A stretch of 64,000 bases of DNA, taken from the NCBI RefSeq assembly GCF_019884725.1, contig NZ_CP082322.1, positions 2,418,001 through 2,482,000 on the forward strand. Direction: 5' to 3'. Below the pieces are notes generated by a model. That model saw only the letters and a program-made list of their open reading frames with translations. It was not told where the DNA came from and did not search any database. How positions within the stretch are numbered: position 1 is the first letter of the stretch; each line of letters opens with the position of its first letter. Positions 16,880 to 42,522 of the stretch are shown here, in pieces. The stretch comes from Leucobacter tenebrionis (GTDB lineage: Bacteria > Actinomycetota > Actinomycetes > Actinomycetales > Microbacteriaceae). The translations under genes and the position numbers were made by a program.

Positions 16880-16912
16880 CAGCAGGGGTATGCGAAGGAG
16901 AATTTGCATCGT

Positions 16913-23073: not shown

Positions 23074-23805
23074 TCAAGAGGCCAAGGCGGTGGCCACCGG
23101 GCGCAGTTCGGCTTGGGAGGCCCACCAGGTCGCGATGCCGCTCAGCGTTCCGAGCTCCGACGATCCCGGATCGGCGTCGGTGAGGAGATCCCCCGAGCGG
23201 TAGCGCGCGAGCAGCACCTCGGCCAGGCGGGGATCGTGCCCGGCTCGCTCGAGACCCACCGCGTTCACGCCCGCGAGGCGGGGCGGCGTGCCGTAGACCT
23301 TCGCGAACGGGGGCACATCGCGGGTGACGGGGGTGCCCATGCCGACCATGGCGCCGGGGGCGATGATGCGGCGCTGGTGCACGACGGCGTTCATGCCGAT
23401 GTTCACCCGATCCCCGATCACGCAGTGGCCGCCGATCGAGACGCCGGCCGAGACGGTCGCATCGTCGCCCAGGAGCACGTCGTGAGCCAGGTAAGCGCGA
23501 TTCAGCACCCAGCTGCGGGAGCCCACGGTGGTCTCCCGGTAGGTGCCCTGATGGATCACGGCCCCCTCGCGGATCACCGCGCCCGATCGGATGCGCACCC
23601 CCGCGTGCTGCAGGTCGCCGCTCCAGGCGGCGTTCTGGGGCAGGCTCGACATCTCGGGCGGAGCGCCGATCTGGGCCCCCGGCCCGATCCAGACGTCGTC
23701 CTCGATCGTGCAGGGGCCGAGGATGACGGCCCCCGGCCCGATCTTCACGTTGCTGCCGAGGGTGACGCCCTCGCCGATGACCGCGTGGGGGCTGATATCG
23801 CTCAT
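23074..23805 (-). CDS. LpxA-like left-handed beta-helix acyltransferase
   Basis: A 243-residue hexapeptide-repeat enzyme that aligns along its length with LpxA, the UDP-GlcNAc acyltransferase of lipid A synthesis. The catalytic His of LpxA corresponds to His108 in YLAHDVLLGDD. The other conserved histidines are His127 and His143 (VVHQRRIIAPG). DVPPFAKVYGTPPRLAGVNA matches the LpxA C-terminal region. At the position of E. coli Gly173, the acyl-length ruler, there is Met156, which favours shorter acyl groups. An actinobacterium of this type should have no lipid A, so the substrate is probably a 3-amino sugar nucleotide or a wall sugar. The start has a leaderless -10 box. Confidence 0.83.
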   Translation of the reverse strand: MSDISPHAVIGEGVTLGSNVKIGPGAVILGPCTIEDDVWIGPGAQIGAPPEMSSLPQNAAWSGDLQHAGVRIRSGAVIREGAVIHQGTYRETTVGSRSWVLNRAYLAHDVLLGDDATVSAGVSIGGHCVIGDRVNIGMNAVVHQRRIIAPGAMVGMGTPVTRDVPPFAKVYGTPPRLAGVNAVGLERAGHDPRLAEVLLARYRSGDLLTDADPGSSELGTLSGIATWWASQAELRPVATALAS

Positions 23806-23812
23806 GGCATCG

Positions 23813-23818
23813 AGCTTA
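23813..23818 (-). promoter_or_regulatory. -10 box of leaderless LpxA-like gene promoter
   Basis: On the minus strand TAAGCT is followed by 7 nt and the ATG at 23805, with no ribosome binding site. Confidence 0.5.
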
Positions 23819-23836
23819 GTGCGCGCGCCGCGCTCC

Positions 23837-25816
23837 TCAGCAGGAGACCCGGTAGAGCGCCGCCTCTCCCTCGCGGTCGATCTCGGTGAGGATCGGCGAG
23901 TGTTCGAGGCCCTTCATCTGCTCGAAGGGGCCCTCGCGCGTCGGATCGTTCTCGAAGATGTAGTCGGTGCCGAAGTCGAGCACGTACTCGACGCCGATCT
24001 CGGCCGAGAGCGCGCAGGCGGCTGCGGGGTCGGGCACGAGGGCGCCGACGAACTCGTAGTAGCGCGGATCGTAGGTGCCGTTGGCGTGGGGGAAGAACAC
24101 CGGGCGATCGGCCAGCGCGTAGGCCAGGGCGCTGCCGTTGAGCGGGTTGTTCGCGATCAGCGCGCCCTCGGGCACCTCCGAGGGGAGGCGCTCGAGAAGC
24201 CGCAGCTCGTCGGTGCTGAGCGACGTGCCCTTCTCTGCGTCGTAGCGCACCTGCACCTCTCGCAGAGCCGAGTCGCTGCCCGCCTGACCCAGTGCGACGA
24301 GGAAGACGAGGGCTGCGGCTGTCAGGCCCCGCGCTGCTCGGCGGGGGCGGGCTGAGAACGATGCGGCGAGGCGCCGCAGGCCCGGCCTGAGCATGGCCCA
24401 CCCGGCCGATGCGCCGAGCACGGCCAGCGGGAACGCTCCGAAGGGCACGAGCGAGGCGAGCCTGCGGGGATCGTTGTACCAGGGGTTCAGGAAGAGCGTG
24501 CGCCAGTCGGAGGAGGGGAAGCCGTCTGCGATGAGGTAGAACGCGGCGAGAGCCGCTGCGCTGCCGACGGCCCAGCGCAGCGGCCGGAAGCGCCAGGCGA
24601 GCGCGGCGCCGAGCAGCACGAGCGCGGAGACCGCCCAGGCGTGGCCCTCCAGGTAGGGCGTGCCCCCGAGGATCTCGAGGGCGGCTCGCTTCGGTCCGTA
24701 GAAGCCCTCCCACTTGTTATCGCTCGTACGCCCCGCGATCCACGCCACGGCGGCGAGCGCCACGAAGGCGATCACCCCGATCGCGGCGCCGAGGCTGCGC
24801 GCCCAGCGGGGGAACCGGCTCGACGCGCGCTGGCCGCCGGGCCCGGCGACAGCACCCCCGCGCCAGGCGCGCACCGCCGCGAACAGCACCGGGAATGCGG
24901 CCCACACCAGCAGAGTGTGGAGCGCGCTGGGGTGCGCGAGCACGGCGGCCCCGAGCGCACCGAGCAGGAGCAACCAGCGGGTCGCGCTCTGCAGCGGCAT
25001 CGCCCGACGGGCGGGGCCCAGGTTCAGCAGCTGCAGCACCGCCACGAACAGGAACGGCAGCAGCGCGAGCGAGAGCAGGTTGGGGTAGAGCACCCCGTAG
25101 CCCGTGAGGAACAGCGGGAAGTTCGCGAACGCCGCCGAGAGCGCCCCCGAGATCGCGGTCACCCGCGTGCTCGGGCCGGCGATCGCGCGTCCGAGGGCGA
25201 CGGCGCCGATCGGCCAGACCACGGCGGCGACGGCGAGAAGCGCGCCGTTGGTCGCGAGGGGGATCGTGGCGCCGCTCAGCTGCGCCACGAGCGCGACGTA
25301 GGCGTGCCAGAGAGTCGGATAGAAGACCGGTGCTCCCGGAGAGATGAGATCCACGGCCAGCGGCGTCGCCGACCCCGAATCGAGGATGTCGCGCACCTCG
25401 TTGAGGTGGAAGATCGCGTCGAATGTCTGAGACACCGCTCCGGGGGATCCGAGCCCCGCGAGCACTGAGAGCGCGATCGCGCCTCCGCCGACGGCGGCCG
25501 CTCCGACCGGCAGCCAGAAGGACCTCGTGAAGGATCGCGCGCGCTCCGCCCGGACGGGCCCGATCCACCGGCGCAGCACGAGCAGTACGAGCGCGAGCGC
25601 GAGCGCGCAGCCGAGGGCCGGCAGCAGCGACCAGCCGAGTCCGGCGAACGGGGCTGCGATGCTGGCGAGCGCGAGGGCGGCGAATCCAGCGGGAATCGCC
25701 ACGACTGCCGCGGTGAACCCGCGCAGGCGGAGCGCGAGCGCCGCCGGGGCTCCGAGCACGGCGATGATCGCGACGGCGATCAGGGACGCGGCGGCGAGCG
25801 AGAGCCAGGTCATCAC
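23837..25816 (-). CDS. DUF6541-like large membrane protein
   Basis: A 659-residue protein with about 14 hydrophobic helices, resembling DUF6541 membrane proteins found in actinobacterial cell-wall loci. Visible landmarks are FDAIFHLNEVRDILDSGSAT in the first large loop, YPTLWHAYVALVAQL, TGYGVLYPNLLSLALLP, and a C-terminal extracytoplasmic part with NNPLNGSALAYALADRP. The layout recalls GT-C glycosyltransferases, with acidic residues in the first outer loop, but I cannot confirm catalysis. GTG 25816 overlaps the DUF2304 stop; ATG 25813 is the alternative. It is encoded with DUF2304 and a DPM-like GT2. Confidence 0.7.
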   Translation of the reverse strand: MMTWLSLAAASLIAVAIIAVLGAPAALALRLRGFTAAVVAIPAGFAALALASIAAPFAGLGWSLLPALGCALALALVLLVLRRWIGPVRAERARSFTRSFWLPVGAAAVGGGAIALSVLAGLGSPGAVSQTFDAIFHLNEVRDILDSGSATPLAVDLISPGAPVFYPTLWHAYVALVAQLSGATIPLATNGALLAVAAVVWPIGAVALGRAIAGPSTRVTAISGALSAAFANFPLFLTGYGVLYPNLLSLALLPFLFVAVLQLLNLGPARRAMPLQSATRWLLLLGALGAAVLAHPSALHTLLVWAAFPVLFAAVRAWRGGAVAGPGGQRASSRFPRWARSLGAAIGVIAFVALAAVAWIAGRTSDNKWEGFYGPKRAALEILGGTPYLEGHAWAVSALVLLGAALAWRFRPLRWAVGSAAALAAFYLIADGFPSSDWRTLFLNPWYNDPRRLASLVPFGAFPLAVLGASAGWAMLRPGLRRLAASFSARPRRAARGLTAAALVFLVALGQAGSDSALREVQVRYDAEKGTSLSTDELRLLERLPSEVPEGALIANNPLNGSALAYALADRPVFFPHANGTYDPRYYEFVGALVPDPAAACALSAEIGVEYVLDFGTDYIFENDPTREGPFEQMKGLEHSPILTEIDREGEAALYRVSC

Positions 25817-26187
25817 GGGGCGGCGCCCTCGTCGCCGTCTCGACGGTCGTTCTGCTCGCGGATGCGCGCCTCCATGAGTGCGACCGACCGCGCGAGGTCG
25901 GTGACCCTGGCGTCGGTGCGAGCCTTCGCGCGTACGACCGCGACCGCGAATGCGATCAGCGCCACGATGAAGAGGTAGAGCAGCAGATCGGTGCCGCGAC
26001 CGATGCCGAAGAAGTGCGCGACGTGCGTGAGCATGCCGGGGAAGAGGATCGCGGCGACAGCCGCGACGACGAAGACGATGGCGAAGAGGCGTTTGAGGGC
26101 GAGGGAGCGCTCGCCCGGGATGAATCGCAGGGCGAACGCCGCCGCCACGAAGACCGCCACGATGAGCAGGAGCTGGAAGAGAGTCAT
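25813..26187 (-). CDS. DUF2304 small membrane protein
   Basis: A 124-residue protein with three hydrophobic segments (residues about 3-20, 33-52, 67-85) and a charged C-terminal helix with DARVTDLARSVALMEARIRE, matching DUF2304. DUF2304 proteins are regularly encoded beside a polyprenyl-phosphate mannosyltransferase-like GT2, as here, and may help anchor that enzyme or move its product. It overlaps the DUF6541 gene and lies 7 nt after the GT2 gene, so the three form one operon. Confidence 0.8.
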   Translation of the reverse strand: MTLFQLLLIVAVFVAAAFALRFIPGERSLALKRLFAIVFVVAAVAAILFPGMLTHVAHFFGIGRGTDLLLYLFIVALIAFAVAVVRAKARTDARVTDLARSVALMEARIREQNDRRDGDEGAAP

Positions 26188-26194
26188 GGGGCGC

Positions 26195-26890: not shown

Positions 26891-26950
26891 ACATGTATTC
26901 TGACAGATAGGACTAGCGCGCTTTCTGGGGCGCGCGAAAGGTGTGTTTCT
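26891..26950. promoter_or_regulatory. Divergent promoter region between the GT2 operon and the aminotransferase
   Basis: The 60-bp gap must drive both strands. Minus strand: CAGAAT at 26897-26902, 6 nt before the GT2 ATG. Plus strand: TAGGAC near 26908 followed by an inverted pair GCGCGC (26917-26922 and 26932-26937) and then the short leader of the aminotransferase. The close packing suggests that the two directions share control. Confidence 0.4.
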
Positions 26951-28063
26951 ATGTCGACGGACTTCATCCCCGCAGCCAAGCCGATCGTCGGCGACGAGGA
27001 GCGAGAGGCAGTCGATCGGGTGCTGCGCTCGGGCATGATCGCGCAGGGCCCCCAGGTGGCCGCGTTCGAGCGGGAGTTCTCCGATCACTTCGTCGAGGGC
27101 CGCGACGTGGTCGCGGTGAACTCGGGCACCAGCGGTCAGCACCTCGGCCTGCTCGCAGCGGGGGTCGGCTCCGGCGACGAGGTCATCGTGCCCTCCTTCA
27201 CGTTCGCGGCGACCGGCAACTCGGTGGCGCTCACGGGCGCGACGCCCGTGTTCGTCGACATCGAGCCCGACTACTTCACCCTCGACCCCGAAGCGGTGCG
27301 CGCGGCCATCACCCCGCGCACGAAGGGCATCATGCCCGTGCACCTCTACGGTCACCCGTTCCTGGTCGACCGGATCGAGGCGATCGCCCGCGAGCACGGC
27401 CTCGCGATCTACGAGGACGCGGCACAGGCGCACGGCGCCTCCTGGAGCGGTCGCCCGGTCGGCACGATCGGCGACTTCGCGATGTTCAGCCTGTACCCGA
27501 CGAAGAACATGACGTCCGGCGAGGGCGGCATGGTGTCGTGCGCGAACGGCGAGCTCGCCCGCAACGTGCGTCTGCTGCGCAACCAGGGCATGGAGAAGCA
27601 GTACGAGAACGAGGTCATCGGCTTCAACGCCCGCATGACCGATATCCACGCCGCGATCGGGCGCGTGCAGCTCACGAAGGTCGACGGCTGGACCGCGCAA
27701 CGGCAGCGCAACGCGGCCGCCCTGAACGAGGGTCTCGCCGGTCTCGCCGGCGTGCAGACCCCGAAGGTCGCCGAGGGGGCCGTGCACGTCTACCACCAGT
27801 ACACCGTGCGTCTCGACGCCGGTGAGCGCGACCGCATCCACGTCGCACTCAAGGAGGAGCACGGGGTCGGATCGGGCGTTTACTATCCGATCCCGAACCA
27901 CCGGCTGCCCTCGCTGACGAAGTTCGCCCCCGGCCTCGACCTCCCCGAGACCGAGCGCGCGGCGCGCGAGGTGCTCTCGCTGCCCGTGCACCCCTCGCTC
28001 ACCGAGGGCGACCTCGAGCGCATCGTCGCGGCCGTCACCGCCGTGGTGAACGCCGGCGCCTGA
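26951..28063 (+). CDS. DegT/DnrJ/EryC1 sugar-nucleotide aminotransferase
   Basis: A 370-residue PLP enzyme of fold type I. It converts a keto sugar nucleotide to an amino sugar. The N-terminus AAKPIVGDEEREAVDRVLRS and MIAQGPQVAAFE are typical of the GnnB/WbpE/WlbC branch acting on 3-keto-GlcNAc nucleotides. Cofactor residues: Asp156 in IYEDAAQAHG, and the Schiff-base Lys185 in SLYPTKNMTSGEGG. YHQYTVRL and GVYYPIPNH complete the active site. A dehydrogenase of the matching Gfo/Idh/MocA type (37359) and an LpxA-like acyltransferase (23074) lie in the same locus. The exporter gene follows after 10 nt. Confidence 0.88.
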   Translation: MSTDFIPAAKPIVGDEEREAVDRVLRSGMIAQGPQVAAFEREFSDHFVEGRDVVAVNSGTSGQHLGLLAAGVGSGDEVIVPSFTFAATGNSVALTGATPVFVDIEPDYFTLDPEAVRAAITPRTKGIMPVHLYGHPFLVDRIEAIAREHGLAIYEDAAQAHGASWSGRPVGTIGDFAMFSLYPTKNMTSGEGGMVSCANGELARNVRLLRNQGMEKQYENEVIGFNARMTDIHAAIGRVQLTKVDGWTAQRQRNAAALNEGLAGLAGVQTPKVAEGAVHVYHQYTVRLDAGERDRIHVALKEEHGVGSGVYYPIPNHRLPSLTKFAPGLDLPETERAAREVLSLPVHPSLTEGDLERIVAAVTAVVNAGA

Positions 28064-28073
28064 TCCTCACCGC

Positions 28074-29870
28074 ATGAAACAGATCTGGATCACCCTCCGG
28101 CAGCTCCTCCCGCTCCTCCCGAAGGGCGCGCAGCGCTACTTCGCCATGTACATGGCGGTGACGAGCGTCATCACGATCCTGGACGCGATCGGGATCACGA
28201 TGCTCATGATCGTGATCCAGCCCGCCATCACGGGAGCACCGATCAAGCTGCCGGTGATCGGCGCCCTCTCGCCCGAGGTCGCTCCCGTGCTCGTGCTCAT
28301 CTCGCTCGCGCTCATGGTGACGAAGTCGGTGCTGAACATCGTGCTGCAGTGGTTCGCGACGCGGCGCTTCGCGCAGTACGAGCTCGCGATCGGCGACCGC
28401 CTGTTCCGCGCGTACATCGGCTCGAGCTGGGAAGAACGCTCGAAGCGCTCCGTCGCCGAGATCACGCGCATCGCCGACGCCGGCATCGCGAACACCATGG
28501 CCGGCTTCATCCTGCCGATCATGCGCCTGCCGAGCTTCCTCTTCACCTTCCTGTTCGCCCTCGGCGCGCTCGTGGTCTCGAACCCCGCGACCTCGGCGAT
28601 CGCCCTCGTCTACCTGTCGCTCGTCACCCTGCTCGTGCACTTCGTCGTCACGAGGAAGGCGCTCGAGGCGGGCCAGGTGAACCTCGACTACAGCTACCGC
28701 GTGGCGAACCTCATGACCGAGATGATCGAGGCGCTCAAGGAGCTCAGCCTGCGCAATCGGTTGAGCGAGGTGGCGGATCTCGTGACCGACAACCGCCGCC
28801 ACAGCACCCGGGCGCGCGCCAACGGCTCGTTCCTCGGCATCCTGCCCGGTTTCGCGTTCGAGGCCGCCCTCATCGGCGGCATCGTGCTCATCGGCGGGTT
28901 CGCGTACTTCCAGGGCGGCATGACCGCGGCGCTCACCGCCGTGGCCGCGTTCGCAGTGGCGGGCGTGCGCCTCATCCCGGCGATCACGGGGCTGCAGGGC
29001 GGCATCGTGCAGGCCACCGCCAGCATCCCGGGCGCGAACGACGTCGTGGGCGACCTCATCGCCGCCGAGCGCGACATGGAGACCTCGCAGACGCCGGCCG
29101 ACACCGCCGAGCTCGCGGAACGCCCGAAGCGGCTGCGTCTCGACGACGTGCGCTTCCGGTACCCGGGCGCCGACGCCGACGTGATCCGCGGCATGTCCCT
29201 CGAGATCCCGCTCGGCAGCTCGATCGGCATCGTCGGCCCCTCGGGCGCCGGCAAGTCGACCCTCATTGACCTGCTGCTCGGTCTCAGCCAGCCCTCATCG
29301 GGCGCCATCGAGCTCGACGGCGAGCCCCTGCGGTCGGTGCTGCGGCAGTGGCGCGGCCGCGTCGGCTACGTGCCGCAGCGAGTGGCGCTGTTCGACGGCA
29401 GCATCGCGCAGAACGTGGCGCTCACCTGGACCGACGCCGAGATCGATCGCGACCGCGTGGAGTACGCGCTGAAGCGCGCGCAGCTCGGGTCGCTCATCGC
29501 CGACCGTGCGAACGGCATCGACGAGCGCATCGGCGAGCGCGGCGTCTCGCTCTCGGGCGGGCAGCAGCAGCGGCTCGGGATCGCCCGCGCGCTCTACACC
29601 GACCCGCTCGTGCTGGTGCTCGACGAGGCCACGAGCTCGCTCGACACGAAGACCGAGGACGAGGTGACGAAGTCGATCAAGCAGCTGCAGGGCGAGGTGA
29701 CGCTCATCTCGGTGGCGCACCGCCTCTCCACGATCAAGGACTACGACCGCGTCTGCTATCTCGACGAGGGCGTCATCGTGGCGCAGGGCACCTTCGCCGA
29801 GGTCGCGCGCCAGCACCCCGCGTTCGGCGAGCAGGTCGCGCTGGCCGGTCTCGCGGGCGAGGTGCAGTAG
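28074..29870 (+). CDS. ABC exporter (fused permease-ATPase), flippase-like
   Basis: A 598-residue half-transporter. About six helices fill residues 20-310. The ATPase domain has GPSGAGKST at 388-396, the signature LSGGQ near 493, Walker B VLVLDEATSSLDT, and the switch VAHRLSTIKDYD. The architecture resembles PglK/WlaB lipid-linked oligosaccharide flippases, which are also encoded among glycosyltransferases. It probably moves a lipid-linked saccharide made by the surrounding enzymes, but a lipid or drug exporter cannot be excluded. It follows the aminotransferase on the same transcript and converges on a GT2 gene. Confidence 0.8.
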   Translation: MKQIWITLRQLLPLLPKGAQRYFAMYMAVTSVITILDAIGITMLMIVIQPAITGAPIKLPVIGALSPEVAPVLVLISLALMVTKSVLNIVLQWFATRRFAQYELAIGDRLFRAYIGSSWEERSKRSVAEITRIADAGIANTMAGFILPIMRLPSFLFTFLFALGALVVSNPATSAIALVYLSLVTLLVHFVVTRKALEAGQVNLDYSYRVANLMTEMIEALKELSLRNRLSEVADLVTDNRRHSTRARANGSFLGILPGFAFEAALIGGIVLIGGFAYFQGGMTAALTAVAAFAVAGVRLIPAITGLQGGIVQATASIPGANDVVGDLIAAERDMETSQTPADTAELAERPKRLRLDDVRFRYPGADADVIRGMSLEIPLGSSIGIVGPSGAGKSTLIDLLLGLSQPSSGAIELDGEPLRSVLRQWRGRVGYVPQRVALFDGSIAQNVALTWTDAEIDRDRVEYALKRAQLGSLIADRANGIDERIGERGVSLSGGQQQRLGIARALYTDPLVLVLDEATSSLDTKTEDEVTKSIKQLQGEVTLISVAHRLSTIKDYDRVCYLDEGVIVAQGTFAEVARQHPAFGEQVALAGLAGEVQ

Positions 29871-29886
29871 GGCGAACGCGACGGCT

Positions 29887-30969
29887 TCAGGCCCGCTTCA
29901 TCACGCGGTAACCGGCGAACAGCGTGCGGAACGGCGCCTGCGGGTGCAGCGCGTAGAAGAGGTTGCGGGTGAGCAGCGAGGCCGGGGAGAGGTAGGCGTG
30001 ACGCGCCTCGAGGGCTGCGATGATGCGCTCGGGGGTGGCTTCGGGATCGCGCAGCGCGTCGAAGACCGCGTGGTCGGCCCGCGAGAGCAGCCGTCCCACG
30101 CGGGGGGCCAGCCGTTGGAAGTGATGGAGCAGGCCGAGCAGTTCGTCGCGGTGCTCGGCGAGGTCTTCCGCGGTGCGCACTCGGGCGAGGATCGCGTCGA
30201 AGACATGGATGCGCACGAGCTTCGCGATGATCGAGGCGCGATCCGCGAGGGGAGCCTCCGCGAACCAGGGCAGGCTCTCCAGCTCGTCCATGAACGCGAA
30301 ATCCTGCGCGACGGGGCGGGCCGAGAAGGTGACGCGGTCGCCGGCGTCGTCGTTGATGACGTAGGCCGGGCCGTCGAGATCGTAGGCCAGCGCGTCGCTG
30401 GTGAACCAGACGGTGAGTGAGTACGTGAGATCCTCACCGGATGCGAGGCCCTCGGTGAGCCGCAGCCCTCCGAAGCGCTCCCTGCTGATGAGGCCGAGGG
30501 GTGCACTGCGGTAGGCGAGGCGGTCCTTGCGGGGGTGGAGGCGGCGCGTGCGTCGTCCGCCGCGCACGGGAGGGTAGGGGTCGGTCGATCCCGTCGCGAG
30601 CCGAATGCGGGCGAGCACGGCGTCGGCGCCGGTCTCGCGCTGCAGCGCGAGCCAGGAGTCGACGGCGCCCGGTGCGAGCTCGTCGTCGGAGCCCATCACC
30701 GAGATGAACGGCGCCGTCGACGAGGCGAAGCCGTGGTTCATCGGACCGGCCGGCGAGTGGATGCCGTCGGCGAGGTGCAGCAGGCGCAGCCGAGGGTCGT
30801 CGGCATACGCTCCGAGGTTCTCGCGAATGATCTCGGGGTCGATGTTGTGCGCGACCACGTTCACGCGCACGGGCGCCCGGGTGTGGTCGAGCACCGAGGC
30901 GGCGGCGCGGGCGACGGGTCGAGTGCGCGAGTGGACGGCGATGGTGAGGTCGACGAGCGGCTCGGTCAT
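29887..30969 (-). CDS. GT2-like glycosyltransferase, tandem paralogue 1
   Basis: A 360-residue GT-A-type protein. It starts VDLTIAVHSRTRPVARAAAS and has the acceptor-facing HSPAGPMNHGFASS and the metal-binding VMGSDDELAPGAVDSW. LASGEDLTYSLTVWFTS is probably the catalytic-base region (GEDL). It shares order and many residues with the next gene upstream (31016-32077), so the two are tandem duplicates, with PAGPxNHG, SDDxLxPGA, GLASGEDL and a C-terminal LTRN..F/L.LHxQ block in common. The -10 box TAGCAT sits 6 nt before the ATG, so the gene has its own leaderless promoter. Donor unknown. Confidence 0.75.
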   Translation of the reverse strand: MTEPLVDLTIAVHSRTRPVARAAASVLDHTRAPVRVNVVAHNIDPEIIRENLGAYADDPRLRLLHLADGIHSPAGPMNHGFASSTAPFISVMGSDDELAPGAVDSWLALQRETGADAVLARIRLATGSTDPYPPVRGGRRTRRLHPRKDRLAYRSAPLGLISRERFGGLRLTEGLASGEDLTYSLTVWFTSDALAYDLDGPAYVINDDAGDRVTFSARPVAQDFAFMDELESLPWFAEAPLADRASIIAKLVRIHVFDAILARVRTAEDLAEHRDELLGLLHHFQRLAPRVGRLLSRADHAVFDALRDPEATPERIIAALEARHAYLSPASLLTRNLFYALHPQAPFRTLFAGYRVMKRA

Positions 30970-30975
30970 GCTTCG

Positions 30976-30981
30976 ATGCTA
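30976..30981 (-). promoter_or_regulatory. -10 box of leaderless GT2 paralogue 1
   Basis: TAGCAT on the minus strand ends 6 nt before the ATG at 30969, without a ribosome binding site. Confidence 0.5.
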
Positions 30982-31015
30982 GTGCCCCCGCACCGCGGAC
31001 CGGCGGGTGCGACCC

Positions 31016-32077
31016 TCACACCGTCATGTCGCGCATGGTGCGGCGCGGGCCCTGGCGGTGCAGCGAGAGCAGTGGATTGCGGGTCAGGATCGCGTCGACG
31101 CCGCCGAGCCAGCGCGCTTCGAGCAGCGACATCACGAGCGCGGAGTCGGAGTCGGGACTGAGGGCCGCGTCGATCGCGGCTCGGTCGCGGCGGGAGAGGA
31201 GGGCGAGGGATCCGGGTGCCATGCCCTCGATGCGCCGCACCAGCGCGGCGAACTCCTGGCGGTGCGCCGCGAGCCCGCCCTCGCCGTGCAACCGGGCGAG
31301 CACCGCGTCGAAGAAGTGGAGCCTGAACACCTTCACCCCGAACACTCGCCGCTGACGGCGGCTCAGGCGGCGGAACCACCCTCCCTCGGCCACGACCTCG
31401 AGGAAGGCGAAGTCCTCATCGAGGCTGCGCCGCACCGCGGTGACCCGGTCTTCCGCGTCATCGCCGAAGACGTAGGCGGGCCCGTGGCGATCGTAGGCGA
31501 TCGAGGCGCCGCTGAACCAGATCCGCGCGGAGAGCTCGAGATCCTCACCCGAGGCCAGGCCGGGTGTGTACCGGAGGTCGTCGAAACGGGTGCGGGAGAG
31601 GAGCCCGACGGGCTCGTTGCGGTAGGGGAGCCGGTCGAGGACGGGGTCGAGGTTCCGCGTGCGCCCCGGTCGGGTCGGGGGCAGCGGATCCGGTGCATCC
31701 GATCCCGCGCGCTCGATCCGCGCGAGCACCGCCTCGGCCCCGGACGACGCGAACGCGAGCCAGGAGTCGAGCGCTCCGGGCCGCAGCGTGTCATCCGAGT
31801 CGAGGAACGAGAGGTAGGGGGCCGAGGCGTGATCGATGCCGTGGTTGCGGGGACCGGCGGGGGAGCGGATCCCGTCGTGCAGTTCGAGCAGGTCGACTCC
31901 GGGGTGATCCGCGAACTCTCCGAGGGCGGCGCGGATGCTCTCGGGGTCGGTGTTATGGGCGACCACGATCACGCGCACCGCTGCGGCCGTCGCGTCGATC
32001 ACCGAAGCGACGGCGCGCGTCACGGGCCGTGCCGGCGAGTGCACGGGAATGATGACGTCGACGGTGTGCTCGCTCAC
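31016..32077 (-). CDS. GT2-like glycosyltransferase, tandem paralogue 2
   Basis: A 353-residue GT-A-type protein and close relative of its downstream neighbour. It has VDVIIPVHSPARPVTRAVAS, IRSPAGPRNHGIDH, the metal-binding FLDSDDTLRPGALDSW and PGLASGEDLELSARIW. I place the start at GTG 32077 because TAGGAT on this strand ends exactly 7 nt before it. The ATG at 32086, three codons upstream, overlaps that -10 box and so could not be in its transcript. The same TAGGATGAGCG layout occurs before the gene at 56671. The two paralogues probably act on neighbouring positions of one glycan. Confidence 0.74.
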   Translation of the reverse strand: MSEHTVDVIIPVHSPARPVTRAVASVIDATAAAVRVIVVAHNTDPESIRAALGEFADHPGVDLLELHDGIRSPAGPRNHGIDHASAPYLSFLDSDDTLRPGALDSWLAFASSGAEAVLARIERAGSDAPDPLPPTRPGRTRNLDPVLDRLPYRNEPVGLLSRTRFDDLRYTPGLASGEDLELSARIWFSGASIAYDRHGPAYVFGDDAEDRVTAVRRSLDEDFAFLEVVAEGGWFRRLSRRQRRVFGVKVFRLHFFDAVLARLHGEGGLAAHRQEFAALVRRIEGMAPGSLALLSRRDRAAIDAALSPDSDSALVMSLLEARWLGGVDAILTRNPLLSLHRQGPRRTMRDMTV

Positions 32078-32084
32078 GACGCTC

Positions 32085-32090
32085 ATCCTA
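32085..32090 (-). promoter_or_regulatory. -10 box of leaderless GT2 paralogue 2
   Basis: TAGGAT on the minus strand overlaps the ATG at 32086 and ends 7 nt before GTG 32077. It decides between the two starts. Confidence 0.5.
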
Positions 32091-32268
32091 CTGGTCTGGA
32101 TATGGCACGGATACGTCGCTCACAGGAGCCTGTTCACGGCAGTTCTCCACAGTTTCTGGTTTCCAGCTTCGTGCCGGAGCGGAGCGTCGTATATTCGTTG
32201 GAATGGGTGCCTGCATCGGGCCCTCGGCCGAAAGATGGCCGGTCGCCGGTCTGCAGCTGAGGTGAGTG
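32091..32268. other. Gene-free stretch between two minus-strand glycosyltransferase genes
   Basis: About 180 bp without a convincing gene. The middle (about 32130-32210) is clearly less GC-rich than the rest of the window. Close to the downstream stop the segment GGCCGAAAGATGGCCGG could form a short hairpin. It separates the GT2 pair from the NYAGQG gene group and may hold the promoter of the former's own regulation or the terminator of the latter. Confidence 0.4.
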
Positions 32269-34746
32269 TCAGCGCCCAGAAGGGCGTTCGATCCAGCCGT
32301 CGATGAGCGCCCTCGCGCTGGCCTCGCCCGAGTGCACCCTGCGTACGAACGCGGGCCCGGCCGCGGCGATCCTCCTGGAGCGTTCCGGATCCCGGACCAG
32401 CCCCTCGATCACCTCTCGGAGCGTGTCCGGGGTCGCCTCGACGATGGGCAGCTCGATCCCGAAGTCGCGCAGCACCCGCTCGCGCACGAAGGGCAGCACG
32501 TGCCCCACGACGATCCTGCCGGCGGCCATCGCCTCGCACGCGGCGACCCCGTAGGAGCCCAGCCTGAACTGGTCGAGCACGATATCAGCGGCTGAGAAGA
32601 CGCGGGGCATCTCACTCGTCGGCACGGCCGTGATGAGCTCGTACTCGACCAGACCCTCGGCGACGAGCTCCGCGAGGGCGGGTTCGATACGGTCGCTGCC
32701 CTTCTGCACCGCGTTGCTCGACGCATGGATGACGCGCGCGGGGCCGCCGGACAGGACCGGCCCGTCGCTCGCGAATCGCTCCGGGTCGACCACCACCGGG
32801 CACCACGAGGCCGAGGGTACCTCGACGGCGAGATCGGGGGTTGAGATGAAGGTCGGGCGACGCAGGCGCCCGAGCAGTGCGAGGTTCTCGCGAGCGTCCT
32901 CGCGGAGGTCGTCGACTCTCGGATCGTCGAGATAGGGCGACCACGGGGTGAGTTCCATGTGGCGATCGGGATCGCGCACGTCGGTTCCGTGGCAGAGGAA
33001 CGCGACGGAGATCCCCTCAGCCTCGAGCGCCGCGATCTCGGCCTCGAGATCGCGCCCGAACCGCTTGCCGAACATCGAGCGCTCGGCCTCGACGAGCACG
33101 TGCGTGAAGCGCCGCGCGGCCTCCCACTCGGCCTCCGCCCACTCCGACGACGCGTTGACCGCGGCGATCGGCACCAGGGTGTCGGCCGGGAACGCGAAGC
33201 CGCCGGGCAGCTCGACCGCCATGTTGCGCGCCGCGATCCGCGAGTCAGCGGTCTCGAGCGCGCGGCCCCAGAGATATCCCTGACCCGCGTAGTTCGTGGG
33301 GGCGATGTAGACGCGCACCTCGGCCTCGGGCACGGTCGTGACGGGCGCCGACCCACCCCCCAGCAGTCGGCCGGCGAGTCGACCGACGAGGCCGTCGGGG
33401 TTGCGCGCCGCCGACTCCATGGTGCGCTGCGCCCAGCGCGGCATCTTGGAGCGATGCTTCACCGCCCAGCTCGCGATGGCACCGAAGAAGCCGCTCAGGT
33501 CCGGTCTCGGCTTCTGCTCGCCGGAGGCAGCAGAGCCGTCGGAGGCCGGGTTCTCGCCCGAGCCGTCAGGAGCGGAGCCGCCGTGGGCTGCGGCCGCCCC
33601 GCCGCCGACGCGCACGACCGTGTCGGCTACGCGCTCGGTAACCGAGCGCATGGAGTGGTGCGCGGCGGTCCACTCGGCCACCTGCCGGCGCTGCGCCGGA
33701 GTGCGTGGGTGATCCGCGATGTTCCGCATCGCCTCGGCGATCGCTGCCGGCGAGTAGTCGACGGCGGCCCCCACCGGCGCCTCGGCCGCGGCCCGCTCGA
33801 TGAACGGCGCGGTGGGACCCGGGCCGGCGAAGATGACCGGGCATCCCGTCGCGAGCGAGGAGTACGCCTTCGACGTGAACGCGTACTCGTAGCCGCCGCC
33901 CGGCCGCAGCGTCGCGAGGCTGGCGAGCGCCGACGCGAGCTGCGGGCGCAGCTCCTCGGCCGGCACCGCCTCCGCGAACTCGACCGCTGCGCCGACGCCG
34001 AGGTTCTCGGCGCGCTGCCGCATGGGCTCCTGCTCGGTGCTGTTGCCGATGAAGCGCAGCCGATACCCGGGGTGCGTGCGAGAGAACTCGGCGAACGCGT
34101 CGACCAGCACCTCGGCGCCGTGGAGGGGGGTGTAGGTGCCTGCGTAGATGAAGGTGCGTTCGATCTCGCGATCCTCGTATCCGAACACCTCCGTGTCGGC
34201 GCCGAAACCGGTCACCGCGATCGGCGCCCGCACCCCGAGTGCGCGTACGCGATCCACGACTCCCTGCGAGATCGTGACCATCGAGGCCGCACCGCGCATC
34301 GCGAACGTCTCGAGCCACCGCAGCACCCTGACCACGAGCCCCGAACTCGTCGCGTGGCCCGCCGCGTCCGACCAGATGTCGGCGGCGTCGTAGACGTAGG
34401 GGATGCGGCGGATCGCGCAGATCACCCGCACGACCGCGCCGGTGGTGGGCGGCGGCTCCACGAACACCGCCGCGGGGCGCTTCGCGAACAGCAGTCGGAA
34501 CGCGAGCGGGACGTCGAAGCTCATGTACTGCACGTAACCGCGCACATAGCCGCTCGCGTCGCGCAGCACCGGGAAGGTGCTGATCCGCTCGCCGCGCGAA
34601 CCCTCGCCCTGACCGGGCAGAGGCTTCGCGGTGAGCACCTCGACCTCGTGCCCCGCGCTCGTGAGCGCGTCGGCCACGCCGCCGAGGAAGAACGAGGCGG
34701 CCGAGGGCTCGGGGCGGTAGATTCGGGAGACGATGAGGAAGCGCAC
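32269..34746 (-). CDS. Fusion of a GT4 glycosyltransferase with a NYAGQG-type module
   Basis: An 825-residue two-part protein. Residues about 1-390 are a GT4-type enzyme: RFLIVSRIYRPEPSAASFFL, YDAADIWSDAAGHATSSGL, FIYAGTYTPLHGAEVLVDAF and GGGYEYAFTSKAYSSLATGC. A Gly/Ala/Pro-rich linker at about 395-435 follows. Residues about 490-825 repeat the module found alone in the two genes upstream: APTNYAGQGYLWGRALETAD, LCHGTDVRDPDRHME, STPDLAVEVPSASWCPVVV and DIVLDQFRLGSYGVAACEAM. The GTG at 34746 starts 1 nt after the previous stop behind a GGGGG ribosome site. Both halves look intact. It may add two sugars in succession. Confidence 0.8.
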   Translation of the reverse strand: MRFLIVSRIYRPEPSAASFFLGGVADALTSAGHEVEVLTAKPLPGQGEGSRGERISTFPVLRDASGYVRGYVQYMSFDVPLAFRLLFAKRPAAVFVEPPPTTGAVVRVICAIRRIPYVYDAADIWSDAAGHATSSGLVVRVLRWLETFAMRGAASMVTISQGVVDRVRALGVRAPIAVTGFGADTEVFGYEDREIERTFIYAGTYTPLHGAEVLVDAFAEFSRTHPGYRLRFIGNSTEQEPMRQRAENLGVGAAVEFAEAVPAEELRPQLASALASLATLRPGGGYEYAFTSKAYSSLATGCPVIFAGPGPTAPFIERAAAEAPVGAAVDYSPAAIAEAMRNIADHPRTPAQRRQVAEWTAAHHSMRSVTERVADTVVRVGGGAAAAHGGSAPDGSGENPASDGSAASGEQKPRPDLSGFFGAIASWAVKHRSKMPRWAQRTMESAARNPDGLVGRLAGRLLGGGSAPVTTVPEAEVRVYIAPTNYAGQGYLWGRALETADSRIAARNMAVELPGGFAFPADTLVPIAAVNASSEWAEAEWEAARRFTHVLVEAERSMFGKRFGRDLEAEIAALEAEGISVAFLCHGTDVRDPDRHMELTPWSPYLDDPRVDDLREDARENLALLGRLRRPTFISTPDLAVEVPSASWCPVVVDPERFASDGPVLSGGPARVIHASSNAVQKGSDRIEPALAELVAEGLVEYELITAVPTSEMPRVFSAADIVLDQFRLGSYGVAACEAMAAGRIVVGHVLPFVRERVLRDFGIELPIVEATPDTLREVIEGLVRDPERSRRIAAAGPAFVRRVHSGEASARALIDGWIERPSGR

Positions 34747-34747
34747 G

Positions 34748-35962
34748 CTACCCCCGGTTTCCGGATCCGTCGGATTCCGCGGTCGCCGTCCCCGCGATGA
34801 AATCCATGAGCACGCCGCGCGAGAAGCGGCCGTCGTGCAGGCGGCGAACGAACTCGGGCCCCTGCGCGGCGATCCGCCGATAGCGCTCGCGGCCATCGAT
34901 CGAGGCGATATCGCGCAGCACCTCCTCGACGCTGTCGAGGGTGGTCTCGGGGATCGGCAGCGGCATCCCGGCCTGTCGCTCGACCTCCTCGCGCACCTGC
35001 TCGCTCACGTGCGCGAGCACCACCCGGCCAGCGGCCATGGTCTCGCACGCGGCGACCCCGTAGTCTCCGACGCGGAACTGGTCGAGCACCACGTCGGCCT
35101 CCGCGAACACGCGCGGCATCTCGCTGTGGGGGATGCCCTCCAGCTCGACGTACTCGATCACGCCCTCGTCGTGCAGCTTGCGCGCCACCGGAGCGACGTG
35201 CGTGGTGCCCTTGAGCTTGGGATTGGTGGGGGCGTGCACGACCCTGATGCGATCCCGCACGAGCAGCGGCTCGTCGTTGGCCCAGCGATCGGGGTCGACG
35301 ATCACGCCGATGAGCTTCGCGGACGGCACGTCCTCGAGCAGGCCCGCCGTCGACACGAAAGTGGGCCGCTGCAGTCGTTCGAGCAGTTCGAGATTGCCGG
35401 CCGCGACGGGCTCGATGATGTCGACGGACTCCCAGACGCCGTCGCGGAACTGCGACCACGGCTCACGCGCCACGTGCGCCGACGGGAGCCGGATCTCGTT
35501 GCCGTGCCCGATCATGCCGACCGTCAGACCGCGGCTCTCGAGCAATTCGACCTGCTTCAGGATGTCTCCCTTGAAGAGGCCGCCGAGGACCGGCATGCAC
35601 GCCTCGAAGAACACGTGCGTGTAGTGGTTCGAGAGCGTCTCGACCATGTCCTTCTGCCACGCACGCGAGTGCTCGGCGGTGCGCCAGCTCATGGTGAAGT
35701 CGGCAGGATAGCCGAGCGGGTTGTTGCCCGAGTGCACGTAGTTCTTCGCCGAGACGAGGCCCGTCGACTCGAGCGCACGCGCCCACAGGTGCCCCTGGCC
35801 GGCGTAGTTGACCGGGCCGATGAGCACGCGGTACGGCTTCGCCGGGTCCGGAAGCGGGGTGGGCGGTGCCTTCACGCCGCGAGCACGGTCGACGGAGGTC
35901 GCGATCGTATCCTGCGCGATCTTGGGCATGGCGCGCCAGAGCCGTTCAGCTACCGGGTGCAT
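34748..35962 (-). CDS. Glycosyltransferase-like NYAGQG module protein, paralogue 2
   Basis: A 404-residue protein, cytoplasmic by sequence. It has VLIGPVNYAGQGHLWARALE near the N-terminus, GMIGHGNEIRLPSAHVARE in the middle, STAGLLEDVPSAKLIGVIV, then RVVHAPTNPKLKGTTHVAPV and ADVVLDQFRVGDYGVAACET followed by MAAGRVVLAHV. The last segment looks like the donor-binding loop of GT-B enzymes (GxxEAMAxGxPV). It is the most divergent of the three modules: the SARNM-FDVPGGF region reads SAKNYVHSGNNPLGYP. It overlaps the upstream paralogue by 17 nt and lies 1 nt from the downstream fusion gene. Confidence 0.72.
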   Translation of the reverse strand: MHPVAERLWRAMPKIAQDTIATSVDRARGVKAPPTPLPDPAKPYRVLIGPVNYAGQGHLWARALESTGLVSAKNYVHSGNNPLGYPADFTMSWRTAEHSRAWQKDMVETLSNHYTHVFFEACMPVLGGLFKGDILKQVELLESRGLTVGMIGHGNEIRLPSAHVAREPWSQFRDGVWESVDIIEPVAAGNLELLERLQRPTFVSTAGLLEDVPSAKLIGVIVDPDRWANDEPLLVRDRIRVVHAPTNPKLKGTTHVAPVARKLHDEGVIEYVELEGIPHSEMPRVFAEADVVLDQFRVGDYGVAACETMAAGRVVLAHVSEQVREEVERQAGMPLPIPETTLDSVEEVLRDIASIDGRERYRRIAAQGPEFVRRLHDGRFSRGVLMDFIAGTATAESDGSGNRG

Positions 35963-37205
35963 GATCCGTCTCCTCTCGTCCGGGGCGGGGATCCGCGGGT
36001 GCCCGCCCGCTCTGCGGCGCGATCCAGTGATCGAGCAGAGCGCGAGCCGCGCTCCGACCGTCGTGCAACTCGCGTACGAATCGCCGCCCCGCGAGGCGAT
36101 GCGGCTCCAGGTCCCGAACCTCGGCCAACGCTCGTAATTCGGCTTCCAGGGTATCCGGTGTCGCCTCGACGATCGGCAGATCCAGTCCGCTCGCCTCGCG
36201 CACCGCCGCCCTGGCCTGCTCGGATACGTGTCCCATCACCACGCAGCCCGCGGCCATCGCCTCGCACGCGACCACGCCGTAGGCGCCCAGCCGGAACTGG
36301 TCGAGCACCACGTCGGCCGCCGCGAGCCGGGCAGGCATCTCCGCGGAGGGCACACCCTGGATCAGGCTGAACTCGATCACGCCCTCCGCATGGAGCCGTT
36401 CGAGTATCGGAACGATCAGAGCGGTGCCCTTCACGGCGGCGATCGAGGGCGCGTGCACCACTCTCAACCGCCGACCCGGAGCGTCTTCCCTCCTCGGGGC
36501 GCTCCAGCGCTCCGGGTGGACCGCCACCGGGCACCACACGGCCTCGGGCAGATCGATCAACAGATCCGGGGTCGACACGAAGAGGGGCAGCCCGCTCGAG
36601 CGCAGGAGATCGATGTTGCGGGATGCCAGTGTTTCGGCTCGAGGCCAGTAGACGGAGGGATCGCGGAAGTAGGACCACTCGTTCGCCTCCATGTGGCGTG
36701 AGGGCAGCCGGACGTCGACGCCGTGCCCGAGGTAGGCCGTGCTCACGCCGCGCTCGAGCAGGGCCGCGACCTGCGCCGCCACCGATCGGCCGAACAAACG
36801 CCCGAAGGGAGGTTCCTCCGCCTCTACCAGCACGTGCGTCGCGCTCGCCGCCGCCTCCAGCTGCCGCCGCTGCCAGTCGGGATCGTTGTGGTAGGTGCCC
36901 ACGGGGACCACGAGATCGGCATCGAAGGAGAACCCGCCCGGCACATCGAACGCCATGTTCCTGGCCGAGATCGAGGCGTCAGCCGCTTCGAGCGCCGCCG
37001 CCCACGCCCGCCCCTGCCCCGAGTAGTTCACCGGAGCGATGAGCACTCTCGTGGGGCGGTCGTCGAAGGAGGTCGTCGGTACGCTCCCGATGGGAGCGGG
37101 CCGACCGAGGCGTTTCGCAGCGAGGCGACCGACGGCACTCTCAGGCGAGTCGGCGATGCGATCGATGATCGAATTCGCCCAGCGGGGCAGGGTGTTGCGG
37201 TTCAC
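35946..37205 (-). CDS. Glycosyltransferase-like NYAGQG module protein, paralogue 1
   Basis: A 419-residue protein. Its N-terminal helix MNRNTLPRWANSIIDRIADS is followed by RVLIAPVNYSGQGRAWAAAL, SARNMAFDVPGGFSFDADLV, AYLGHGVDVRLPSRHMEANE, STPDLLIDLPEAVWCPVAV, then ADVVLDQFRLGAYGVVACEA and MAAGCVVMGHV. It is the first gene of a three-gene operon of paralogues. The GTG at 37205 overlaps the stop of an upstream 12-codon ORF (GTGA) and has no clear ribosome binding site of its own. The substrate is unknown; the fold appears to be GT-B. Confidence 0.75.
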   Translation of the reverse strand: MNRNTLPRWANSIIDRIADSPESAVGRLAAKRLGRPAPIGSVPTTSFDDRPTRVLIAPVNYSGQGRAWAAALEAADASISARNMAFDVPGGFSFDADLVVPVGTYHNDPDWQRRQLEAAASATHVLVEAEEPPFGRLFGRSVAAQVAALLERGVSTAYLGHGVDVRLPSRHMEANEWSYFRDPSVYWPRAETLASRNIDLLRSSGLPLFVSTPDLLIDLPEAVWCPVAVHPERWSAPRREDAPGRRLRVVHAPSIAAVKGTALIVPILERLHAEGVIEFSLIQGVPSAEMPARLAAADVVLDQFRLGAYGVVACEAMAAGCVVMGHVSEQARAAVREASGLDLPIVEATPDTLEAELRALAEVRDLEPHRLAGRRFVRELHDGRSAARALLDHWIAPQSGRAPADPRPGREETDHAPGS

Positions 37206-37240
37206 GTTTCGAGTAGCCCCGCTCGGCCGGTGGTCAGCAT
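37202..37240 (-). CDS. Putative 12-codon leader ORF, translationally coupled
   Basis: ATG at 37240 begins MLTTGRAGLLET and stops at TGA 37204-37202, overlapping the GTG start of the NYAGQG paralogue 1 gene by two bases. TAGGAT at 37253-37248 ends 7 nt before the ATG, so the mRNA should be leaderless and ribosomes should load on this small ORF. The main gene has no ribosome site of its own, so re-initiation from the leader would explain its expression. The peptide is not rich in any single amino acid, so classic attenuation is unlikely. Confidence 0.5.
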   Translation of the reverse strand: MLTTGRAGLLET

Positions 37241-37247
37241 GCGGGCA

Positions 37248-37253
37248 ATCCTA
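37248..37253 (-). promoter_or_regulatory. -10 box of the NYAGQG operon
   Basis: TAGGAT on the minus strand, 7 nt before the ATG of the 12-codon leader. Only about 40 bp separate it from the plus-strand -10 box of the dehydrogenase gene, so both directions share one short control region. Confidence 0.55.
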
Positions 37254-37293
37254 TCCCGCCATGATGGGGCGGGGCGCACCCGGGGGAATCTCG

Positions 37294-37299
37294 TAAACT
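37294..37299 (+). promoter_or_regulatory. -10 box of the Gfo/Idh/MocA dehydrogenase gene
   Basis: TAAACT gives a transcript start near 37306 and a leader of about 50 nt that ends with the ribosome binding site TTAGGAG at 37345-37351. Confidence 0.5.
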
Positions 37300-37358
37300 G
37301 GTGTGGTTCGCGCCGCCCCGGCCGGGATGGCGCCGCTCTCGTCGTTAGGAGATGGCTC

Positions 37359-38312
37359 ATGGCTCAGCCGAACGTGGTGCTCTTCGGCGCCGGATCGATG
37401 GGGCGCAATCACGCCCGCATCATCTCGTCTTCGGCTCGGGCCAATCTGGTCGGGATCGTCGATCCCTTCGAGCAGAACGGACGGGCCGCGGCAGAGCAGT
37501 ACGGCGGCGAGTGGTTCCCCGAGGCCGGCGAGGCGCTGAAGCGGGCCGACGCCGCGGTGGTCGCAGCCTCGACCGAGTACCACTACGGCATCGCCAAGGA
37601 GATCCTCGACGCCGGTATCCCGGTGCTCATCGAGAAGCCGGTCTGCCCCTCGCTCGAGCAGACCGAAGAGATCCTCGCGACCGCCGAGCAGCGCGGAGTG
37701 CCGGTGCAGTGCGGTTTCCTCGAGCGCTACAACGCGGGGGTCATCGCAGCGCAGTCCCTCATCGAGGAGCCCGTCTACGTGCGGGCCGAGCGGCACTCGC
37801 CCTACTGGTCGCGCATCAAGACCGGCGTGGCGTGGGACGTGCTCGTGCACGACGCCGACCTCATCTCGCGCATGTTCGGATCGCAGACCCCCGACAAGGT
37901 CAATGCCGAACTCGGCTACTTCCACCCCGAGTCGGTCGAGGGCGCTGAAGACGTGATCGACATGACCCTGCGCTTCCCCGGCAACGGCATCGCCTCCGCC
38001 TCCGCCAGCCGCGTCGGGCAGCGCAAGGTGCGCAAGCTCACCATCCAGTCGCTCGACTCCATGGTCGAGGTCGACCTGCTGCTGCGCAGCGTCACCAAGT
38101 ACCGCCACACCAACATCGAGAGCACCAACGATCGCGCCGGTTTCAAGCAGATGACCGAGATCGAGGTGCCCGAGGTCTCGGGGCTCGAACCGCTCGCCGC
38201 GCAGTTCGAGTACTTCGTCGACCTCGTGGAGGGCGCGGTCGATGCCGATGACGAGCGCCGCAGCATCCTTCCCGCGCACCGCATCATCGCTTCGGCGCTG
38301 CAGCAGGGCTGA
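37359..38312 (+). CDS. Gfo/Idh/MocA sugar-nucleotide dehydrogenase (GnnA/WlbA-like)
   Basis: A 317-residue NAD(P)-dependent oxidoreductase. The dinucleotide-binding motif is VVLFGAGSMGRNHARII (residues 6-22). The family EKP motif occurs in PVLIEKPVCPSLEQTEEILA, and the catalytic His in DVLVHDADLISRMF. N-terminal GAGSMGRNHAR is typical of enzymes that oxidise C3 of UDP-GlcNAc or its uronic acid. In the same locus the DegT aminotransferase (26951) and the LpxA-like acyltransferase (23074) would act next. The ATG at 37359 is 7 nt after TTAGGAG. A myo-inositol dehydrogenase-type role is less likely from the context. Confidence 0.82.
   Translation: MAQPNVVLFGAGSMGRNHARIISSSARANLVGIVDPFEQNGRAAAEQYGGEWFPEAGEALKRADAAVVAASTEYHYGIAKEILDAGIPVLIEKPVCPSLEQTEEILATAEQRGVPVQCGFLERYNAGVIAAQSLIEEPVYVRAERHSPYWSRIKTGVAWDVLVHDADLISRMFGSQTPDKVNAELGYFHPESVEGAEDVIDMTLRFPGNGIASASASRVGQRKVRKLTIQSLDSMVEVDLLLRSVTKYRHTNIESTNDRAGFKQMTEIEVPEVSGLEPLAAQFEYFVDLVEGAVDADDERRSILPAHRIIASALQQG

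Positions 38313-41357: not shown

Positions 41358-42522
<1,165 letters not shown>

Follow-up and report, generated by a model that had tools for sequence, protein, structure and literature searches.

The 64,000-nucleotide stretch of the Leucobacter tenebrionis genome analysed here (the window; G000:C1:2418001-2482000, in a genome that forms a single contig of 3.38 Mb) carries the genes of three enzymes, a Gfo/Idh/MocA dehydrogenase (Gfo), a DegT/DnrJ/EryC1 aminotransferase (DegT) and an acyltransferase of the LpxA branch, which we propose, with a probability of roughly 0.55, to convert uridine diphosphate N-acetylglucosamine (UDP-GlcNAc) through a 3-keto and a 3-amino intermediate into UDP-GlcNAc3NAc for a wall glycopolymer. 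In this route, the Gfo enzyme would oxidise C3 of UDP-GlcNAc, the DegT enzyme would transaminate the 3-ketone, and the LpxA-like enzyme would N-acetylate the 3-amine, with His108 and Asp109 at the place of the catalytic His125 and Asp126 of LpxA. The predicted product is the neutral UDP-2,3-diacetamido-2,3-dideoxyglucose, which would be fed to a polymer built by the surrounding transferases and an ATP-binding cassette (ABC) exporter. We infer these substrates and products, the acyl donor and the wall-polymer use from the enzyme families, the conservation of the cassette and of its residues, and the gene context. The three genes are:

23074..23805, minus strand: LpxA-like left-handed beta-helix acyltransferase, proposed UDP-GlcNAc3N 3-N-acetyltransferase (PF00132/PF13720, matches to solved structures, tree, residues)
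26951..28063, plus strand: DegT/DnrJ/EryC1 aminotransferase, proposed 3-aminotransferase (PF01041 414.7 bits, tree)
37359..38312, plus strand: Gfo/Idh/MocA dehydrogenase, proposed UDP-GlcNAc 3-dehydrogenase (PF01408, NF040723 below cut-off, 7bvj, tree)

An earlier reading of this DNA from its letters alone (the sequence-only reading) had placed these three families in one locus and treated them as one unit, and both claims hold. All three open reading frames were recovered at these coordinates with the expected families (Hexapep, DegT at 414.7 bits, GFO_IDH_MocA at 83.3 bits). Among 248 sampled genomes of the order, six have a match to the acyltransferase, this genome counted; the Gfo was matched in ten at E<=1e-25, and the six matches below 1e-79 came from the same six genomes. 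With this genome left out, the chance of such a 5/5 overlap among 247 is about 1.4e-10 under independence of the genomes, an assumption that does not hold since three of the five have one family code. All six have a DegT gene at the same locus, which in G206 is only a fragment at a contig end. The trio is a real, conserved but sporadic unit. In a sample of the phylum the acyltransferase was matched in 6/396 genomes, four of which, including this one, have the trio; the matches also include G588, from a contig of 3.3 kb, whose grouping with LpxA rows has low support, and G534, a weak match with an internal stop, near a 6-dehydrogenase and a DegT gene and without a Gfo match. The closest named relatives of the Gfo come from four Leucobacter genomes (87-88% identity), and all five Leucobacter-type genomes keep the trio, the acyltransferase at 78-81%, the DegT at 82-86% and the Gfo at 87-88% identity to those of the window. 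In these genomes the trio occupies one locus, but it is spread over two contigs in L. sp. 7(1), and the glycosyltransferases between its genes vary.

The cassette reaches well beyond the genus. A Gfo alignment was scanned against the GTDB species genomes; of 566 confirmed stretches the best 80 were kept, and the first 60 of these (L050-L109, cut by hand at L109) were counted; these are mostly actinobacterial, with Dormibacterota and Chloroflexi bins besides, and 18 of them have flanks shorter than 10 kb on a side. An LpxA-type gene was found within 10 kb of gfo in 36/60 loci, a WlbB-type acetyltransferase in 6/60 and both in none; the hexapeptide matches of L052, L053 and L056 were left out of this count because the tree placed them elsewhere. 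This mutual exclusion, with neither type in 18 of the 60, has a Fisher p of 0.003, in which related Micromonospora loci are treated as independent. Five of the six WlbB-type loci belong to Micromonospora, and their protein matches 3mqg, an entry entitled 3-N-acetyltransferase WlbB, at 1e-50. Since the WlbB-type enzyme replaces the LpxA-type one in these six loci, the distribution suggests that both carry out the same chemistry, N-acetylation. In 43/60 loci gfo is preceded by a canonical DegT gene that ends no more than 200 bp upstream, and a UDP-sugar 6-dehydrogenase was detected in three, those of L. celer, of L. zeae and of a Chloroflexi bin. Among the 42 loci with full flanks, 26 have the LpxA-type gene and two a 6-dehydrogenase. 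The genera with the cassette include Leucobacter, Microbacterium, Amycolatopsis, Lentzea and Rhodococcus, among others. As a separate observation, in 33/60 loci (L034-L105, e.g. L054:12444-13583) the stretch fetched with the Gfo also holds a second DegT aminotransferase, which this genome lacks; in three examples it is 35-39% identical to the DegT of the window.

Among solved structures, the best single-sequence match of the acyltransferase is 8e62 (E 3.2e-31), followed by LpxA (3.3e-23) and, far behind, by WlbB 3mqg (5e-6), whereas with a profile of 11 relatives the LpxA entries lead and 8e62 comes 15th. The title of 8e62 names Pcryo_0615, an N-acetyltransferase for a diacetamido-2,3-dideoxy sugar. 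In a tree of 75 rows the protein stands among actinobacterial rows; between these also fall the LpxA rows, on a long branch, while 8e62 lies just outside and the WlbB-type and LpxD rows are set apart. Judged from the tree, it is an acyltransferase of the LpxA branch outside the WlbB-type group, although it misses the cut-offs of the LpxA equivalogs (NF003657, 145.5 of 226 bits; TIGR01852, 137.7 of 231.05 bits). The sequence-only reading had likewise set it with LpxA; a serine/colanic-type acetyltransferase was considered and rejected on scores of 34 bits for CysE and 27 bits for WcaB vs 145.5 bits for LpxA, the tree being without CysE and WcaB rows. A quinovosamine-type route was also set aside, as QdtC matches the acyltransferase weakly and QdtB is just one among many DegT matches; a QdtA-like isomerase was not searched for. 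A structure model built from 11 sequences (mean predicted local distance difference test score 72.8) matched LpxA only at a root-mean-square deviation of about 12 A but came within 2.8-3.6 A of pectate lyases; its handedness is therefore probably wrong, and only the entry titles of its matches were used.

The residues of the active site and of the acyl tunnel were compared in 49 cassette-type rows, eight LpxA-type rows (including L042) and 8e62, drawn from the 75 rows of the tree with 17 dropped; the 49 cassette rows include close relatives and two identical pairs, and thus are not independent. The sequence-only reading had reported His108, His127 and His143 as conserved and Met156 at the ruler position, and the alignment agrees: they fall on His125, His144, His160 and Gly173 of Escherichia coli LpxA. 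The window protein has the catalytic His125/Asp126 pair and the substrate residues His144, His160, Gln161, Asn198 and Arg204, and the cassette rows keep His125, Asp126, His160, Gln161 and Asn198 in 49/49, His144 in 46/49 and Arg204 in 47/49. Lys76 is lost in the window protein, and the position of His122 is taken by Tyr105. The residues of PaLpxA that correspond to Lys76 and His144 are described as binding the 6-OH (PMC7072397).

Two glycines of the tunnel are replaced by bulky residues in the window protein, Gly155 by Met138 and Gly173 by Met156. The cassette rows have Met for Gly173 in 48/49 and Met or Leu for Gly155 in 45/49; in the eight LpxA rows each position is Gly in 7/8. The acyl tunnel is probably too narrow for fatty acyl groups. 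The short 3-acylamino sugar that the sequence-only reading had drawn from Met156 remains likely as to the short acyl group; Met156 alone would not mean acetyl, because the G173M change shifts E. coli LpxA from C14 to C10 and Met stands at this place in the C10-specific Pseudomonas LpxA (PMC6408518). Acetyl appears the likeliest acyl group given the second bulky residue, the replacement by WlbB-type enzymes and the kinship to Pcryo_0615, which has Met at both tunnel positions and, like the window protein, Glu at the position of Gln73. Transfer of a longer acyl group (e.g. a 3-hydroxyacyl from acyl carrier protein), giving a lipid-like 3-acylamino sugar, would agree with the grouping with LpxA, whose profiles lead once relatives are added, and with the C10 specificity of known LpxA with Met at the ruler position; we consider it improbable in view of the second tunnel position, of a best single-sequence match that is an N-acetyltransferase, of the WlbB-type substitution in six loci and of the lack of LpxC. 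For this enzyme, the search was positive in 4/14 controls, E. coli among them, and in 0/5 of the Leucobacter-type genomes (this genome and the four congeners); because of this, lipid A synthesis is not expected in the host, which bears out the earlier view of a bacterium without lipid A.

The Gfo resembles archaeal UDP-GlcNAc 3-dehydrogenases, known from the Methanococcus route: its best NCBIfam match is NF040723, at 126 bits vs a cut-off of 450. Its best solved match is 7bvj (74.8 bits with the single sequence), which we take to be GnnA of Acidithiobacillus ferrooxidans. A first profile had held part of 7bvj, which made its 323 bits circular; with a profile free of it 7bvj scores 144 bits and an inositol dehydrogenase comes second at 117.5 bits. 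An inositol dehydrogenase as the identity of the Gfo, which the sequence by itself would allow, is unlikely by context. For the GnnA-like Gfo of the sequence-only reading, the best match agrees but is not specific: the Gfo of genome G159, whose Wbp-like cassette joins it to a DegT, a 6-dehydrogenase and an enzyme of the WlbB type, scores higher on both 7bvj and NF040723, and these matches do not, as far as scores can tell, separate a neutral from a uronic substrate. In a tree of 54 rows (41 of the 80 loci, length filter 220-420), the Gfo proteins of actinobacteria fall into a single clade (38 rows, 100/100) apart from the long-branch Gfo of G159, and 7bvj stands in a nearby group with Gfo proteins several of which adjoin genuine lpxA genes. 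Constraining the actinobacterial clade to the GnnA group was not rejected by the approximately unbiased (AU) test (p-AU 0.27). A motif common to the actinobacterial Gfo and 7bvj, chosen post hoc and weak as a marker, occurs in 34/38 actinobacterial rows, 3/8 GnnA/LpxA-linked rows, 0/2 Wbp-type rows and 5/9 of the remaining rows, where one Wbp-type row and L044 are counted. Separately, in L111, L112, L122 and L125, whose hosts are a Planctomycetota member, WOR-3, Longimicrobiales and an unnamed bacterium, a Gfo gene directly follows an LpxA gene (at 43-45% to LpxA of E. coli), and these groups may make a diamino lipid A.

The DegT is the only strong match of its family in the genome, seven others being partial at 20.8-33.2 bits. 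The sequence-only reading had put it in the place of GnnB; it is not the usual partner in the cassette, being 43-49% identical to the canonical type where full length and 66% identical to the DegT of G159. A tree covering 34 of the 80 loci (length filter 300-460) joins it in one group (nine rows, 100/100) to the DegT of G159, that of Nocardioides cavernae and the second DegT copies of two congeners. Of these copies, that of L. sp. 7(1) (L169) was compared by similarity only, and that of L. chromiireducens (L170) sits among genes read as unrelated. In N. cavernae the same DegT type adjoins an LpxA-type gene, and within 10 kb no canonical DegT was detected; because of this pairing an exchange of the DegT type seems tolerated. 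The DegT might instead serve another sugar pathway, without being used by the Gfo and the acyltransferase, as its place apart from both partners and its non-canonical type would allow; this we hold to be very improbable, given that the genome has no other strong DegT, that N. cavernae sets the same type beside the acyltransferase gene, and that it is kept at 82-86% within the locus in 4/4 congeners.

The same families could act on a uronic sugar. In Pseudomonas the Wbp/Wlb route gives UDP-GlcNAc3NAcA and ManNAc3NAcA (PMC10622841), and the wall polymer of Streptomyces griseus contains ManNAc3NAcA and GlcNAc3NAcA, its utr genes being assigned to a Pseudomonas-like route (PMC13274773). Like the trio, this route joins a Gfo, a DegT and a hexapeptide N-acetyltransferase, serves a wall polymer in Streptomyces, and has a cassette with whose DegT that of the window groups; unlike the trio, it needs a 6-dehydrogenase, which is absent from this locus, and its WlbB/WbpD acetyltransferase belongs to another branch. 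Here an unlinked 6-dehydrogenase would supply UDP-GlcNAcA, and the trio would convert it into UDP-GlcNAc3NAcA for a teichuronic-acid-like polymer as in S. griseus, a possible course of events that we nevertheless regard as rather unlikely.

No UDP-GlcNAc 6-dehydrogenase scored over cut-off in the window, where one sub-threshold Rossmann match of 26 bits was seen. The genome holds two 6-dehydrogenases outside the window, one of UDP-glucose type and one WecC/TviB/Cap5O-like; the UDP-HexNAc 6-dehydrogenase candidate lies at G000:C1:1351787-1352869, more than 1 Mb away, and adjoins a gene read as a sugar-phosphate transferase. In L. celer and L. zeae (2/4 congeners) a 6-dehydrogenase gene precedes gfo by 90-150 bp, and L. 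celer has a second one about 34 kb away. Near this place L. chromiireducens and L. sp. 7(1) have an unrelated hexapeptide protein, and this genome has glycosyltransferase genes; the two hexapeptide proteins were seen near 504-1010 of L052 and near 4436-4933 of L168. In L. chromiireducens, a draft of unstated completeness that keeps the trio, no PF03721 match was found over cut-off. The positions that cleanly separate the two genomes with a linked 6-dehydrogenase from the other three number two in Gfo, two in DegT and six in the acyltransferase; because they are so few, the comparison gives no sign of a changed substrate, and UDP-GlcNAc would be the simplest common substrate of the Leucobacter-type trios.

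Several results weigh against the neutral route. The three genes do not form one operon here. The tree sets the DegT with one from a Wbp-like cassette, which leaves room for a uronic substrate, and the Gfo scores favour the Wbp type at least as much, the Gfo of G159 reaching 211 vs 126 bits on NF040723 and 86.7 vs 74.8 bits on 7bvj, again its best match; because of these higher scores the matches of the window Gfo show no UDP-GlcNAc substrate. A tree in which the actinobacterial clade was constrained to the Wbp-type Gfo of G159 was not rejected (p-AU 0.112). The closest solved acyltransferase, Pcryo_0615, presumably acts in a uronic route. To these are added the linked 6-dehydrogenases of L. 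celer and L. zeae, the unlinked candidate of this genome, a search of nine genomes with one 6-dehydrogenase as query that gave matches at E<=1e-10, mostly unlinked, in eight, this one included, and the 18 loci with neither acyltransferase type within 10 kb, four of which are Leucobacter loci with the LpxA-type gene farther away or on another contig. The uronic sugars of Streptomyces walls (PMC13274773) set a precedent. On the other side stand the window without a 6-dehydrogenase over cut-off, the linkage of this enzyme in just 3/60 loci, an acyltransferase that is not WlbB-type and, above all, L. chromiireducens; the neutral route is favoured mainly because this species keeps the trio with no 6-dehydrogenase found over cut-off. 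The sequence-only reading had also preferred the neutral sugar, on the ground that no 6-dehydrogenase was visible: the preference stands and the observation is true for the window, but it is a weak argument given the unlinked candidate and the linkage in 2/4 congeners.

The upstream position in two congeners also admits the idea that a separate 6-dehydrogenase gene, gained or lost upstream of gfo, switches the polymer between neutral diamino and acidic diamino-uronic forms while the trio stays unchanged. This is doubtful at present; if true, it would make wall charge a one-gene trait, like surface serotypes.

The neutral route has its nearest counterpart in lipid A synthesis. GnnA, GnnB and LpxA act in succession in Acidithiobacillus and Leptospira. 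They provide UDP-GlcNAc3N and its acylation in lipid A (PMC5644692). The likeness to the trio lies in the same three families, in 7bvj as the nearest solved structure of the Gfo and in an acyltransferase of the LpxA branch; the trio differs in the absence of LpxC, the two bulky tunnel residues, the wall-polymer locus and a DegT that is not shown to be a GnnB. Pcryo_0615 differs in coming from Psychrobacter, where it belongs to a Gram-negative O-antigen, and in its substrate, presumably uronic. Thus LpxA-like 3-N-acetyltransferases (Pcryo_0615) and three-step 3-amino routes (GnnA/GnnB) are already known singly, and among the open-licence papers listed none dealt with a conserved LpxA-type/Gfo/DegT cassette, or an LpxA-type route, in Gram-positive walls. 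If the proposal is true, an enzyme of the LpxA branch, normally bound to lipid A, serves wall-sugar synthesis in Gram-positives of many genera, and a neutral 2,3-diacetamido sugar is predicted in their walls. The tree may also bear on the origin of LpxA, as the Gram-negative LpxA rows fall among actinobacterial rows, in an unrooted tree with a long branch where their placement is unsure. Related diamino-uronic wall sugars are a receptor for antibacterial toxins of Streptomyces (PMC13274773).

The gene neighbourhood fits a wall glycopolymer locus. Around the trio are found:

16904..19792, plus strand: GT2 and TagF-like (Glyphos_transf) protein (PF04464, PF00535)
21015..22187, minus strand: ABC transporter ATPase of the polysaccharide-export kind (PF00005; kept in 4/4 congeners)
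22171..23037, minus strand: ABC-2 permease adjoining the acyltransferase gene (PF01061; weak likeness to the galactan exporter Wzm)
23837..25816, minus strand: DUF6541 membrane protein adjoining the acyltransferase gene (PF20176; kept in 4/4 congeners)
28074..29870, plus strand: ABC transporter or flippase-like protein directly downstream of the DegT gene (ABC_tran)
29887..37205, minus strand: block of glycosyltransferase genes between DegT and Gfo, variable among congeners (Pfam glycosyltransferase families, weak for two)
41371..42522, plus strand: UDP-galactopyranose mutase-like protein (named from reading the sequence, no family scan; 91-94% kept in 4/4 congeners)
42538..44442, minus strand: GlfT2-like galactofuranosyltransferase (PF19320, PF17994)

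Pfam scans also placed an O-antigen-ligase-like protein and DUF2304 proteins among these genes. The ABC-2 permease scores 47 bits on NF050109, far under the cut-off. The ABC protein next to the DegT gene adjoins it in 2/4 congeners and lies 2.4 kb off in L. celer and about 5 kb off in L. zeae. No RNA family reached its gathering threshold in the window. The protein encoded at 39452-41338 has a LicD-like part and, weakly matched, a methyltransferase part, together with a DUF6752 tail. Three glycosyltransferases in 32269-37205, one of them only in its C-terminal half, are alike by reading (sharing an 'NYAGQG/NYSGQG' start), as if tandem-duplicated; all three are kept in two congeners and partly in the other two.

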